64,000 nucleotides of DNA from Cytophagaceae bacterium (GTDB taxonomy: Bacteria; Bacteroidota; Bacteroidia; Cytophagales; Spirosomataceae), in NCBI GenBank assembly GCA_017984215.1, contig JAGOAA010000004.1:1-64000 (forward strand), written 5' to 3'. Each line of letters begins with the position of its first letter. The stretch's first letter is position 1. This document shows positions 35,929-39,847 of this stretch, piece by piece. Both the position numbers and the translations under genes were made by a program. The notes under the pieces were generated by a model. It saw only the letters and a list, made by a program, of their open reading frames with translations, was not told the origin of the DNA and searched no databases.

Positions 35929-36789
35929 TTAATGTTTATTCAGGATCCGACCAATGTCATTGGCTTTCCCTAATTCCTCTTTCAGTTTATCGTAACTTCC
36001 TGACAACATCAGGCCCTTGTATTTCAACAAGGTGTTGATGTATTCATCCAAAACATCCATCAAATTATCTTGGTTTTGATGGAAGATCTGCGACCACGTT
36101 TCCGGGGACGATTTGGCCAAACGTACCGTTGATTCAAAACCCGTGGAAGCTAATTCGAAGATGCGTTCCTCATTTTTTTCTTTCTCCAAAACGGTATTTG
36201 CCAAAGCAAAAGAACAGATGTGGGAAATGTGGGAAATGTAGGCGGTGTGTACGTCATGGTCAATTGATTCCATGTAAATTAAATTCATTCCCAAACCATT
36301 GCGGTATAAACTTTCAATCGTTGCAACGGCCTCAGGTGAACTCAATTCCTTATCACAGATAACGCCTCGCTTTCCTTGAAACAAACCTTCTACTGCGGCT
36401 TCCGGTCCGGAAAATTCGGTACCTGCCATCGGGTGCGTTGATACAAATTGCGCGCGTTTGGGGTGATTTTTGAGGGCCTCGTATACCGGCGTTTTGGTAG
36501 AACCCACTTCGATGACGATTTGACCAGGTTTTAAATGGTCTAATACATTCGGGATGATTTGTACCAAAATGTCTACCGGCGTTGCACAAACAAACACTTC
36601 GACCCGTTCAATGGCTTCTTCAAGCGTTAATATTTCATCCACCAAGCGTAAGGATAGTGCTTTCTTGGCGTGCTCGGGATTTGCGTCAATTCCAATTAAT
36701 TCAGTTGCCCAACCCGATGTACGTAAGGCTTTTGCAATGGACCCACCAATTAACCCAATACCAATAATTCCTACTTTCTTAGATTCCAT
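35929..36789 (-). CDS. tyrA: Prephenate dehydrogenase
   Basis: Oxidative decarboxylation of prephenate to 4-hydroxyphenylpyruvate in tyrosine synthesis. Rossmann motif GIIGIGLIGGSIAKAL at the N terminus, STKTPVYEAL, and the substrate-site motif THPMAGTEFSGP are present; no ACT domain is fused. The ATG at 36789 is chosen because the Rossmann strand begins right after it; the open frame upstream is aminotransferase sequence in another frame. It overlaps the aminotransferase gene by 11 nt and shares its attenuator-like leader. Confidence 0.93.
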   Translation of the reverse strand: MESKKVGIIGIGLIGGSIAKALRTSGWATELIGIDANPEHAKKALSLRLVDEILTLEEAIERVEVFVCATPVDILVQIIPNVLDHLKPGQIVIEVGSTKTPVYEALKNHPKRAQFVSTHPMAGTEFSGPEAAVEGLFQGKRGVICDKELSSPEAVATIESLYRNGLGMNLIYMESIDHDVHTAYISHISHICSFALANTVLEKEKNEERIFELASTGFESTVRLAKSSPETWSQIFHQNQDNLMDVLDEYINTLLKYKGLMLSGSYDKLKEELGKANDIGRILNKH

Positions 36790-37954
36790 TGTTGTGATTT
36801 TTGATGCGATCGATCGCTGTTTGAAATACCTCTTCTTTTGCGCACAATGAAATTCGCACATACCCATTTCCCTGTGATCCAAAAATCCCACCTGGAGTAA
36901 TGAATACCGCATTCTCGTCTAAGATTTTGTCGGAGAGTGCATAGCCCGACTCGAAATTTGCCGGTATTCGTGCCCAAACAAACATCCCTGTTTGCGCGGG
37001 GTCATATACACAATCCAATAAATCCATCAATTCAAATACCTTTTTCTGGCGGGATTTGTAGATTTCATTCTGACGGGCAAACCAAGTTGAATCGGCCGAT
37101 AATGCTTTCGCCGCTGCTTCTTGTAAGGGTAAAAACATACCCGAATCCATGTTGGACTTGAATTTCAAAACCGGTCCTAACAATTCCGCCCGACCGAATG
37201 CCGCACCGATGCGCCAACCGGCCATGTTATGGGATTTGGAAAGGGAGTTTAATTCGATTGCGACATCTTTCATGCCAGGTACGGCCAACAAGCTTATTGG
37301 ATTTTCATTGAGGATAAAACTGTACGGATTATCATTCACCAATAGAATCGAGTGGCGAATTGCAAAGTCGCGCAGTTTGGTAAAAAATGCTAGGTCTGCT
37401 TTGGCACCTGTAGGCATATGCGGGTAATTCACCCACATGATTTTTACCTTCGATAAATCTTGTTTGTCCAATGCATCTAAATCGGGTAACCAGCCATTCG
37501 CTTCGGTTAACTCATACGCTTGAACCGTTGCACCCGCAAGCGAACAAGCCGCTTGATAGGTGGGGTAACCTGGATTGGGAATTAGTGTCACATCGCCCGC
37601 TTCCAAATAAGCCATGGCAATGTGCATGATGCCTTCTTTGGAACCAATCAAGGGTAAAATTTCATTTGTTGGGTCTACTGTCACCGCATAGTGCTTGGCA
37701 TAAAAAGCAGCAAAAGCCTCACGTAAGGCAGGTATTCCTTGATAACCTTGGTAAGCGTGGTTCGCAGGGTTAGCCGCAGATGAAGTCAAGGCCTCGATCG
37801 TTTCCTGAGAAGGAGCGAGGTCTGGACTACCTATACCTAGGTTGATGACAGGAATGCCGGCCGCGCGCAAGGCAGCGATTTGCTTGAGTTTCGTGGAGAA
37901 ATAATATTCTTCAACGGACTTTAAACGCGAAGCGGGTGAAATAGAAAAGCTCAT
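36779..37954 (-). CDS. PLP-dependent class I/II aminotransferase, probably aromatic
   Basis: 391 aa from the ATG at 37954 (MSFSISPASRLKSVEEYYF). Fold type I features: VINLGIGSPDLAPS, the PLP-lysine motif NSLSKSHNMAGWRIG, and the C-terminal arginine region GNGYVRISLCAKEE. By sequence it is in the aspartate/LL-DAP/aromatic aminotransferase group. Being first in an operon with tyrA and behind a tyrosine-rich leader peptide strongly suggests transamination of 4-hydroxyphenylpyruvate (and phenylpyruvate). An upstream in-frame ATG at 38002 lies before the terminator hairpin and is rejected. Confidence 0.88.
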   Translation of the reverse strand: MSFSISPASRLKSVEEYYFSTKLKQIAALRAAGIPVINLGIGSPDLAPSQETIEALTSSAANPANHAYQGYQGIPALREAFAAFYAKHYAVTVDPTNEILPLIGSKEGIMHIAMAYLEAGDVTLIPNPGYPTYQAACSLAGATVQAYELTEANGWLPDLDALDKQDLSKVKIMWVNYPHMPTGAKADLAFFTKLRDFAIRHSILLVNDNPYSFILNENPISLLAVPGMKDVAIELNSLSKSHNMAGWRIGAAFGRAELLGPVLKFKSNMDSGMFLPLQEAAAKALSADSTWFARQNEIYKSRQKKVFELMDLLDCVYDPAQTGMFVWARIPANFESGYALSDKILDENAVFITPGGIFGSQGNGYVRISLCAKEEVFQTAIDRIKNHNNGI

Positions 37955-37983
37955 AAAATAAAAATGCCGACTCACAGGCCGGC
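37955..37983 (-). terminator. Attenuator-like terminator before the aminotransferase-tyrA operon
   Basis: Minus strand: GCCGGC (37983-37978), loop CTGTGA, GTCGGC (37971-37966, one G-T pair), then ATTTTTATTTT running straight into the ATG at 37954. An intrinsic terminator between the leader peptide and the first structural gene is the hallmark of transcription attenuation. Confidence 0.75.
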
Positions 37984-38018
37984 GAAAATAAGTTAACATC
38001 AAAAACCTATCAAACCGG

Positions 38019-38084
38019 TTACGCGCAGACGTAATATCCTGCGTAATAATAACCTGCGTAATAAGTAGTCGATTTGAAATCCAT
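38019..38084 (-). CDS. Tyrosine-rich leader peptide (21 aa)
   Basis: ATG at 38084, TAA at 38019-38021. The peptide begins MDFKSTT and continues YYAGYYYAGYYVCA: seven tyrosines among 14 residues. It sits between a consensus promoter and a terminator hairpin, upstream of an aminotransferase and tyrA, as expected of a leader peptide whose translation senses charged tRNA-Tyr. Its stop codon abuts CCGG, which can pair with the 5' arm of the terminator (weak antiterminator candidate). The Tyr codons come partly from a repeated TTACGCAGG unit, so low-complexity origin is the alternative explanation. Confidence 0.75.
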   Translation of the reverse strand: MDFKSTTYYAGYYYAGYYVCA

Positions 38085-38088
38085 GTCT

Positions 38089-38119
38089 CAAAGGTATGAA
38101 AAAAATGATTTTATGCAAA
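38089..38119 (-). promoter_or_regulatory. Consensus promoter of the tyrosine operon leader
   Basis: Minus strand TTTG (38119-38116), a 19-nt spacer and TACCTTTG (38096-38089), an exact match to the Bacteroidota consensus. Only AGAC separates the box from the leader-peptide ATG. The -33 element overlaps the last codons of recX. Confidence 0.75.
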
Positions 38120-38572
38120 TCCTCTAGGGAAAAGTCCCTTTAATACTTGGGAAACAAGTCCAGGTTCGAATCCTTTGGATAATCCGGTACGGTAACACTT
38201 TTGGTACTTTTCTGCTGAAGTTCCCGATTTCAAGGATTCTGCTTTTTTGGTTAACAGGTTTTTCAAGGCCTCGGAATAGTCTTCCTCCGCGATTTCTTTC
38301 CAATGTGCCTGTATCTCCGAAGCAGATATTCCTTTTTTACGTAATTCGAATTGGATTTTACCACGCCCCCATTTCTTTTGGTTGAATTTGGAACGAATGA
38401 ATAGTCCCACGAACCGACTTTCATTCAGGTAATTGTTCTCCTGCAGCCATTGGATATAAATCGCTTGTTCGGCCAAAGGATCTAATTCGTGAATTTTCTG
38501 TTTGATTTCTGAGATGCAGCGTTCCTGATAGGCGCAATAGCGGGCCAATTTATTCAGTAATGCGCTGTCCAT
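38111..38572 (-). CDS. recX: Regulatory protein RecX
   Basis: 153-aa helical protein that modulates RecA filaments. Family stretches: LARYCAYQERCISEIKQKI, WLQENNYLNESRFVGLFIRSKFNQKKWGRGKIQFELRKKGIS (read in parts), with the RFV.. and WG..KI.. patterns conserved. It starts 3 nt after the hemA stop, so it is likely co-transcribed with hemA, and is not next to recA here. Confidence 0.88.
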   Translation of the reverse strand: MDSALLNKLARYCAYQERCISEIKQKIHELDPLAEQAIYIQWLQENNYLNESRFVGLFIRSKFNQKKWGRGKIQFELRKKGISASEIQAHWKEIAEEDYSEALKNLLTKKAESLKSGTSAEKYQKCYRTGLSKGFEPGLVSQVLKGLFPRGFA

Positions 38573-38575
38573 GGA

Positions 38576-39847
38576 TTAGGATTCGTGCTCTTCGAATTGC
38601 TCGAGATTGAATAAATCAGTTAACACATCTACCATCGCATCTGAATCCCCGCGTTTGCAGGCGGCTTTTAAATGTATGATGGGTTGTTTGATGATTTTTT
38701 GTACCAAAGAAGCCGTGATTTTTTCCAACTTCTCTACTTCCTCCGCACTAAGTCCTTTGAGGTGGCGATTGATTTCCTCCTTACGGATTTGTTCCAAGGC
38801 ACCTTTAAGTTTATGGATCGTAGGGGAAACTTCCATTTCCTTCGACCAATCGTTAAAGCTATCAATGCTTTCGGTAATGATATTTCTTACATCCGGAATA
38901 GATGCCATGCGTAAGGCCAAGGCCTCGTCCGCACGTTCTTTCAAGGAATCAATGTTGTACAACAACACGCCTGAAACTTTTTCAACGCCTTCTTCAATGC
39001 TCCGAGGAACCGAAAGGTCAATGAAATATTTAAATGAAAGCAATTGCATGGCTTTCAATTTTTCCTGTGTGATGATAGGAGAATCCGTACGAACCGAAGA
39101 GATAATGATATCAGCCGCTTCAACCTCTTGGCACATATCTTCGAATGGCGCTACTCGGAAATTTTTCCCCTGCGCAATGCGTTCTGCTTTTTCTAAGGTA
39201 CGATTCATCACCGTTACCTCAGCAAAATCTTTGTCTTCGAAGTTTTTGCAAACGTCGATTCCAATTTCACCTAAGCCCAAAATTAGGACTTTCGGTGCTG
39301 CTAATGCTTGGGATAATTCCTCAGCTAAAGCAACCGTCGCATAAGATACAGATGCCGCTCCATCTCGGAACGAAGTTTCCTGCGCTACACGTTTGTTGGA
39401 ATAGAAAATCGTATGCATTAAACGATGCAAATAGGGGCCTGCCATGTTATGGTCAGCCGCTAATTGATACGCTTTTTTAATCTGATTTGGGATTTGTAAA
39501 TCACCTACCACCTTCGATTGTAAACCCGTAGCCACCTCAAACAAATGTTGGAGTGATTCATTGGTTTCATTCATTTGGATGAAATAATTCACATAATCTG
39601 TCGTATTTGTTAATCCTTTTTCGATCAACAAGGCTTTGATTAATTGTTCTGAAATATCTTCCTGGGTGGTGAAATAGAGTTCCGTCCGATTACAAGTGGA
39701 GACGATCAGCAATTCTTGTAAGCCAAATAGGTCTTTACACTTGAGTGTAAAAGCCTTGCTTTCGTCCTCATTGAGGGCCACCATCTCACGAATGGTGAGT
39801 GGCGCACTGCGGTGAGAAATACTGACTGACTTAAACGGTGTGATCAT
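38576..39847 (-). CDS. hemA: Glutamyl-tRNA reductase
   Basis: First committed step of C5-pathway tetrapyrrole synthesis: glutamyl-tRNA to glutamate-1-semialdehyde. Nucleophile Cys52 in IVSTCNRTELYF, N-terminal SISHRSAPLTIRE, a Rossmann segment VLILGLGEIGIDVCKN, and the C-terminal dimerisation helices. 423 aa is the usual length. An exact TACTTTTG box at 39874-39881 lies 26 nt upstream of the ATG. Confidence 0.95.
   Translation of the reverse strand: MITPFKSVSISHRSAPLTIREMVALNEDESKAFTLKCKDLFGLQELLIVSTCNRTELYFTTQEDISEQLIKALLIEKGLTNTTDYVNYFIQMNETNESLQHLFEVATGLQSKVVGDLQIPNQIKKAYQLAADHNMAGPYLHRLMHTIFYSNKRVAQETSFRDGAASVSYATVALAEELSQALAAPKVLILGLGEIGIDVCKNFEDKDFAEVTVMNRTLEKAERIAQGKNFRVAPFEDMCQEVEAADIIISSVRTDSPIITQEKLKAMQLLSFKYFIDLSVPRSIEEGVEKVSGVLLYNIDSLKERADEALALRMASIPDVRNIITESIDSFNDWSKEMEVSPTIHKLKGALEQIRKEEINRHLKGLSAEEVEKLEKITASLVQKIIKQPIIHLKAACKRGDSDAMVDVLTDLFNLEQFEEHES

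Follow-up and report, generated by a model that had tools for sequence, protein, structure and literature searches.

How is the aminotransferase-tyrA gene pair of this freshwater bacterium controlled? The question is raised by a short open reading frame, rich in tyrosine codons, that stands together with a terminator directly ahead of the two genes on the minus strand of the window, i.e. the stretch of 64,000 nucleotides of DNA that was analysed, from an organism whose family name we take to be Spirosomaceae. Leader-peptide attenuation is a classical mechanism, represented at amino-acid operons by leaders of the trpL, hisL, thrL and pheL type, and tyrosine genes are classically described under TyrR. 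An earlier note on this DNA had read the region as a transcription attenuator for tyrosine synthesis. From 38119 to 37954 in the 5' to 3' direction, the minus strand carries TTTG and TACCTTTG boxes, the Tyr-rich frame, CCGG, the terminator and the ATG of the aminotransferase. The individual features are as follows:

38089..38119, minus strand: promoter, with the -33 TTTG at 38119-38116 and the -7 box TACCTTTG at 38096-38089
38019..38084, minus strand: leader peptide frame MDFKSTTYYAGYYYAGYYVCA with its stop codon, 21 codons, 7 Tyr and 1 Phe
38018-38015, minus strand: CCGG directly abutting the leader stop codon
38004..38018, minus strand: predicted antiterminator 5' strand, CCGGU + UU + GAUAGGUU, beginning directly after the stop codon (RNAduplex)
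37979..37994, minus strand: predicted antiterminator 3' strand, AACUUAUU + UUC + GCCGG, in which GCCGG is the terminator 5' arm (RNAduplex, occupancy folds)
37955..37983, minus strand: intrinsic terminator GCCGGC - CUGUGA - GUCGGC with a T-rich tail, stem 37983-37966 (pattern scan, fold)
36779..37954, minus strand: aminotransferase class I/II, the first structural gene (PF00155)
35929..36789, minus strand: tyrA, prephenate dehydrogenase, 286 aa from ATG 36789 (NF006307, PF02153, PF20463)

The promoter, 21-codon frame, CCGG, terminator, aminotransferase and tyrA had been named in this order by the earlier note and were all located where it had placed them; its leader of seven Tyr and one Phe is the frame 38084-38019, the stop codon of which lies next to CCGG. 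The T-rich tail of the terminator runs to 37955 and thus abuts the aminotransferase ATG at 37954. The product of tyrA scores 334.5 bits with NF006307, the NCBIfam model for prephenate dehydrogenase (cut-off 295), and the likely start of the gene is ATG 36789, overlapping the aminotransferase gene, which ends at 36779. As for the substrate of the aminotransferase, the best 25 NCBIfam models listed all score under their own cut-offs. Family models identify recX and hemA upstream of the leader. The -33 TTTG (38116-38119) overlaps the last codons of recX, and the same TTTGCATAA stretch is found again at many loci of the genus type.

In 150 first-order Markov copies of the 64 kb window there was no ATG frame of 10-30 codons with at least seven Tyr, and the leader is the single such frame in the real window. 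A simple terminator scan of 36900-38700 returned 2 sites, with 2.2 expected, and the terminator alone is not outstanding; it is because of conservation that the locus as a whole exceeds chance.

Conservation was followed in a sample of 150 family genomes, 42 of which, from 10 genera, have an aminotransferase of the window's class (at least 64% identity, E <= 8e-151). By aminotransferase identity, the nearest named relatives are the Cytophagaceae MAG L001 (97%) and Aquirufa antheringensis L004 (83%). A Tyr-rich leader, a post-stop segment and a terminator precede the aminotransferase in all 42 genomes, 35 of them read by pattern and 7 more with the terminator judged by eye, so that the check proposed by the earlier note, conservation of frame and terminator in close relatives, came out in its favour. 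The leader set comprises 52 loci (35 family genomes and 17 named contigs, partly of the same genomes), which reduce to 41 distinct leaders picked by Tyr content, and a terminator-like site follows the leader by pattern in all 41; the wider-phylum set used below was picked by Phe+Tyr+Trp content. Among the named loci L001-L017, which are mutually related and therefore not independent, a broader frame listing gave no competing frame beside the aminotransferase and a few chance frames further off. Searches with an RNA covariance model (R1) gave one match per genome in 37 of the 38 genomes of the window's genus, with 91 candidates scored per genome, so that weaker second copies could escape; the sole genome lacking a match (G170) is 83% complete and in 520 contigs. 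The aminotransferase lies downstream of the match in 30 of 30 fetched genus genomes and, by coordinates, in 4 more, so that 34 of the 37 were covered. Since R1 retained the terminator helix alone, it served as a finder and not as a structure test.

At the level of codons, 19 distinct leaders have 22 codons including the stop, with Tyr at codons 8 and 12-14 in all 19. Ala15 and Gly16 are equally constant, either Tyr or Phe stands at codon 17, most other positions vary, and there are a few TAT/TAC swaps at the conserved Tyr codons. The peptide is shorter in other genera and usually has a YYY, YYYY or YYYYY run; as a comparison of MDFKSTTYYAGYYYAGYYVCA, MNQSINTYRAYYYYALQA and MATILYTASYYYYYANA makes clear, the residues other than Tyr are not conserved across genera. 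This codon-level conservation suggests that the frame is translated.

The earlier note had proposed that CCGG pairs with GCCGG of the terminator 5' arm, and had called this antiterminator of four GC pairs and a wobble the weakest part of its model. The pairing was found and is longer, comprising two blocks, CCGGU/GCCGG and GAUAGGUU/AACUUAUU (RNAduplex), that add up to 13 pairs, three of them wobbles, with a computed energy of -14.3 kcal/mol vs -8.7 for the terminator stem. As far as the model goes, the weak point is largely repaired. In L001, the post-stop letters of which are those of the window, the same duplex of -14.3 compares with a shuffle mean of -7.8 (p = 0.017, 300 shuffles), and for 17 of 20 post-stop types the own duplex is better than those with the segment shuffled (p <= 0.05), the misses (p > 0.05) being L015, L017 and L110. 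When strands were swapped among the 20 types, own pairs were better overall (P = 2/20001), with the own partner ranked first in only two types. The wider phylum gave a mean of -16.2 for own pairs and -10.8 for swapped pairs over 74 leaders (0 of 20000 permutations; own partner first in 7 of 74, median rank 6), and because related sequences share letters, these permutation values are not independent. One L061 frame with no plausible attenuator was excluded from the 74-leader swap test and from the composition comparison given below. Changes of sequence are accommodated in individual leaders: the Flectobacillus strands AGUCGGUUGUGU and ACACAAGCCGACU (L010) form the same kind of duplex, and in L016 the antiterminator strands and the terminator 3' arm have changed together (GAGUAGG, CCUGCUC, GAGUAGG). 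Many leaders of the second type (L056, L058, L064, L066 and others) have their best antiterminator strand inside the frame, after the aromatic codons, and not in the post-stop segment. Parts, order, conservation and the two mutually exclusive pairings are established for this locus at the level of sequence, comparison and predicted structure, and there is very high confidence in a conserved regulatory unit made up of all three elements, leader, terminator and antiterminator.

The ribosome footprint extends about 13 nt from the A-site codon, as determined by toeprint work. A ribosome at the stop codon would therefore mask the first ten post-stop bases, and one at a Tyr codon would leave most or all of them free. 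In folds of the nascent RNA with the ribosome in place (n=41), the mean probability that the terminator 5' arm is paired upstream was 0.16 with the ribosome at the stop codon vs 0.76 at the last Tyr codon. With the ribosome stalled, the antiterminator exceeded 0.5 in 41 of 41 leaders (the lowest at about 0.50); with it at the stop codon, this was the case in 2 of 41. The nascent RNA free of ribosomes exceeded this value in 33 of 41 leaders; the window itself gave 0.82 stalled, 0.47 at the stop codon and 0.15 without a ribosome. Shuffling of the post-stop linker reduced the mean switch from 0.61 to 0.04, and in 25 of 41 leaders the switch was larger than with any of the 20 shuffled linkers. Full-length RNA free of ribosomes favours the terminator in 41 of 41. 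Full-length equilibrium folding was also tried as a general model and failed, with the antiterminator beating the terminator in 20 of 41 leaders at best, when the ribosome was placed where the Tyr run begins (14 of 21 leaders of the genus type, 6 of 20 others), and in only 7 of 41 when it was placed on the last Tyr codon. In this modelling, the leaders that fail in equilibrium folds would need co-transcriptional folding.

Three of the features that define an attenuator occur together here: a frame rich in the end product, a terminator before the first gene and, by computation, an exclusive alternative pairing. On the strength of sequence and folding models, it is highly probable that a ribosome-mediated transcription attenuator, sensing charged tRNA-Tyr, controls the aminotransferase-tyrA operon; judged by its anatomy, ribosome stalling at the Tyr codons is with much the same assurance its mode of action. 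We infer a transcription start, stalling, termination and a tyrosine response that would be connected as follows. Transcription would begin at or beside the leader ATG, and a ribosome would translate the leader behind the polymerase. With plentiful Tyr-tRNA, the ribosome would reach the stop codon and cover the first ten or so post-stop bases, the terminator would form, and transcription would end just before the aminotransferase ATG. With scarce Tyr-tRNA, the ribosome would stall at the Tyr codons and leave the post-stop bases free to pair with the terminator 5' arm and the bases ahead of it, so that the polymerase would read through into the aminotransferase gene and tyrA.

The same anatomy would serve if the nascent leader peptide arrested its own ribosome by its sequence, in response to free tyrosine or another signal as in TnaC, and the terminator switch ensued; indeed, all 19 distinct leaders of the genus type share an unchanged YYYAG core. 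The peptide outside the Tyr codons is not conserved across genera, however, and the leader MTKAAYNKNWWQG of trpE in the same genome (L237, G000:C12), which is followed by a terminator, has WW instead, and arrest by the nascent chain is thus considered unlikely. That trpE has a WW leader of its own also speaks for leaders specific to the amino acid concerned. The trpE leader has no Rfam match, the Bacteroid-trp motif RF01692 included. Elsewhere in this genome, no Phe leader was seen at the chorismate mutase-prephenate dehydratase gene, which has only a short gap to the previous gene. No leader was seen either in the upstream stretches inspected of the two genes of the DAHP-synthase family, and none was evident upstream of four ilvD-type and leuA-type genes (L240-L243); the match to homoserine dehydrogenase sits on a contig edge. 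At hisG, this genome and two relatives have a terminator between genes but no visible His leader.

It is very improbable that the small frame boosts translation of the aminotransferase by re-initiation, with the hairpin incidental. Short leader frames near genes are common, and a role in re-initiation is argued for them in passages of PMC4833913. The Bacteroidetes peak given there is at 11-14 nt, however, whereas in the window 64 nt separate the leader stop codon from the aminotransferase ATG, and in other genera 96-183 nt separate it from the point where the aminotransferase match begins; the Tyr enrichment and the kept terminator and antiterminator would be left unexplained. Equally doubtful is a terminator that merely ends read-through from recX, with the Tyr-rich frame as a small protein gene. 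The distances give this reading some appeal, with recX ending 26 nt ahead of the leader start in the window and the recX match ending no more than about 330 nt from where the aminotransferase starts at 11 of 17 named family loci. Leader and terminator are nevertheless kept where recX is further off (L009, L011, L014) or not found (L015, L017), a promoter motif lies between recX and the leader, and the frame length and the non-Tyr residues are not kept across genera. Most remote is direct binding of tyrosine or tRNA-Tyr by a riboswitch or T-box, with the frame there by chance: T-boxes serve tyrosine genes in other bacteria according to a passage of PMC1262725, but up to E = 1 no Rfam family, T-box included, matches 37000-39000, an alignment of 12 leaders yields a consensus structure with the terminator helix alone, and all 42 genomes keep the Tyr frame.

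For the probable attenuator sensing charged tRNA-Tyr, the upstream boxes also indicate where transcription may start. Of the 41 distinct leaders, 37 have TAnnTTTG at 4 nt (29 leaders) or 5 nt (8 leaders) ahead of their ATG, the exceptions in spacing being L015, L189, L016 and L017. The same promoter box is described at -12 to -5 in a flavobacterium, in which only 5.5% of mRNAs are leaderless (passages of PMC9723704). A box at -12 to -5 with a gap of 4 nt would make the A of the leader ATG the first transcribed base, and the leader of the window is probably leaderless as judged from this spacing; for the genus, a leaderless start is likely. A sigma-70 promoter scan of the 36900-38700 region did not pick the leader promoter, which is of the Bacteroidota type, and such a scan proved useless for Bacteroidota promoters.

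The composition of the leader appears to follow the gene content of the operon. At 52 of 80 named loci, a prephenate dehydratase gene lies ahead of the aminotransferase at a distance of up to about 1350 nt; of these loci, 50 have at least one aromatic (Phe/Tyr) leader with a terminator and 23 have two in tandem; the two with no leader are L049 and L050, with little sequence upstream of the dehydratase for L050. The 73 leaders of dehydratase loci contain Phe in all cases and have a mean Tyr share of aromatics of 0.39, as compared with 0.94 (range 0.67 to 1.00) at the 18 loci with the aminotransferase first and a leader (L001-L017, L062), a comparison partly shaped by filters because leaders were preselected by Tyr or by Phe+Tyr+Trp content. 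Loci L024, L035, L068 and L074 were excluded, with a far-off dehydratase or little upstream sequence. Six named loci with the aminotransferase first have no leader (L028, L053, L057, L060, L067, L077). One of those with a leader lies outside the family: L062, a Lentimicrobium MAG in which no dehydratase was found at the locus, has a Phe-free Tyr leader (MASASNNMYYYAYYYLNGNKGSYVLL, or with a shorter start) 90 nt before the aminotransferase, and this Tyr-only leader apparently arose independently. A Bacteroidota-wide rule linking leader composition to operon gene content is moderately probable, with Phe/Tyr(/Trp) leaders at dehydratase operons; that the leader was retuned to tyrosine on loss of the dehydratase at least twice, in the window's family and in the Lentimicrobium MAG, is on balance favoured.

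Among L018-L080 there are tandem Phe/Tyr attenuators, each complete, at some 900-1650 nt ahead of the aminotransferase (1147 and 977 nt in L026). They precede both dehydratase and aminotransferase, and the first leader of a pair often contains Trp (e.g. MIQQTTFGYFYGFYFFWYQE; a second leader is e.g. MLQRFSLYFFYFFFYFFYVVKAGTLL). Within loci L008 and L012, the leader is kept with no tyrA within about 4 kb downstream of the aminotransferase, and there it would guard either the aminotransferase by itself or different genes. Other genera have a second class of aminotransferase, at about 50% identity; none of its 14 sampled loci has such a leader, and it adjoins tyrA in 6 of the 10 sampled genomes covered. 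Where tyrA stands apart from the aminotransferase (L215, L217, L218, L221, L228), no Tyr leader of its own was seen upstream. Several family genomes (G014, G019, G022, G027, G062 and others) have weak tyrA (PF02153) matches and a distant aminotransferase only, and those genera may use a different route to tyrosine or lack its synthesis. L017 has a SAM riboswitch (RF00162, 74.6 bits) upstream of the aminotransferase on the opposite strand (L017:1762-1876, minus).

Leader-peptide attenuation has been indicated in Bacteroidota in passages of several papers (PMC9723704, PMC2864571, PMC1173090). Table 7 of PMC1173090 gives putative attenuators for hisHb>tyrA in Agrobacterium tumefaciens and for pheA>hisHb>aroA-aroQ>tyrA in Bacteroides thetaiotaomicron. 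Like the window, these cases have an attenuator ahead of genes of the aminotransferase-tyrA kind, one of them in Bacteroidota; they differ in coming from a terminator/antiterminator database, with no leader peptide or controlling amino acid named in the passages concerned, and Agrobacterium belongs to another phylum. Passages of further papers report clues to leader-peptide attenuation in Flavobacterium psychrophilum (PMC9723704), two uORF candidates that contain Phe and Tyr, at shikimate genes (PMC6429828, legend of Fig. 6b) and uORFC-13-1 with Phe before aroF in Acholeplasma (PMC8632094). They share with the window leader peptides at amino-acid or shikimate genes, but those passages name no tyrosine-only leader before an aminotransferase-tyrA pair. 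In the part of PMC1262725 concerned, phenylalanine is placed under attenuators and tyrosine under T-boxes.

Two Rfam families come close in kind. Phe_leader (RF01859) shares an aromatic leader and a terminator with the window; it scores below its gathering threshold of 55 on Bacteroidota Phe/Tyr leaders (L019 43.1, L026 41.5, L080 41.3 and L045 35.6 bits) and has no match in 37000-39000 of the window up to E = 1, nor to the Tyr leaders L010, L015 and L017. RF01692, the Bacteroid-trp motif in Table 1 of PMC2864571, is a Bacteroidetes cis-regulatory motif named for trp, and has no match in 37000-39000 of the window. Searches of the open PMC library, outside which most subscription papers lie, gave by title and abstract no report of a tyrosine-only leader attenuator. 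If the reading given here is true, the classical mechanism would have a new specificity and a new layout in tyrosine-only attenuators on leaderless frames, and one more amino acid would join those sensed by attenuation, in a phylum with little-studied gene control. Such attenuators would be compact, testable switches in freshwater Bacteroidota, and since operons with and without prephenate dehydratase differ in leader composition, they offer a natural experiment on the regulatory code following operon rearrangement.

The window resembles leaders of the trpL, hisL, thrL and pheL type in its frame of end-product codons, its terminator before the first gene and a pairing that would be chosen by the position of the ribosome. 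Classical attenuators use a separate protector hairpin, which at leaders of the window's type is seen only in ribosome-free folds. Unlike the classical leaders, that of the window is read as specific for tyrosine alone, takes its predicted antiterminator strand directly from the stop codon and has a predicted leaderless start.
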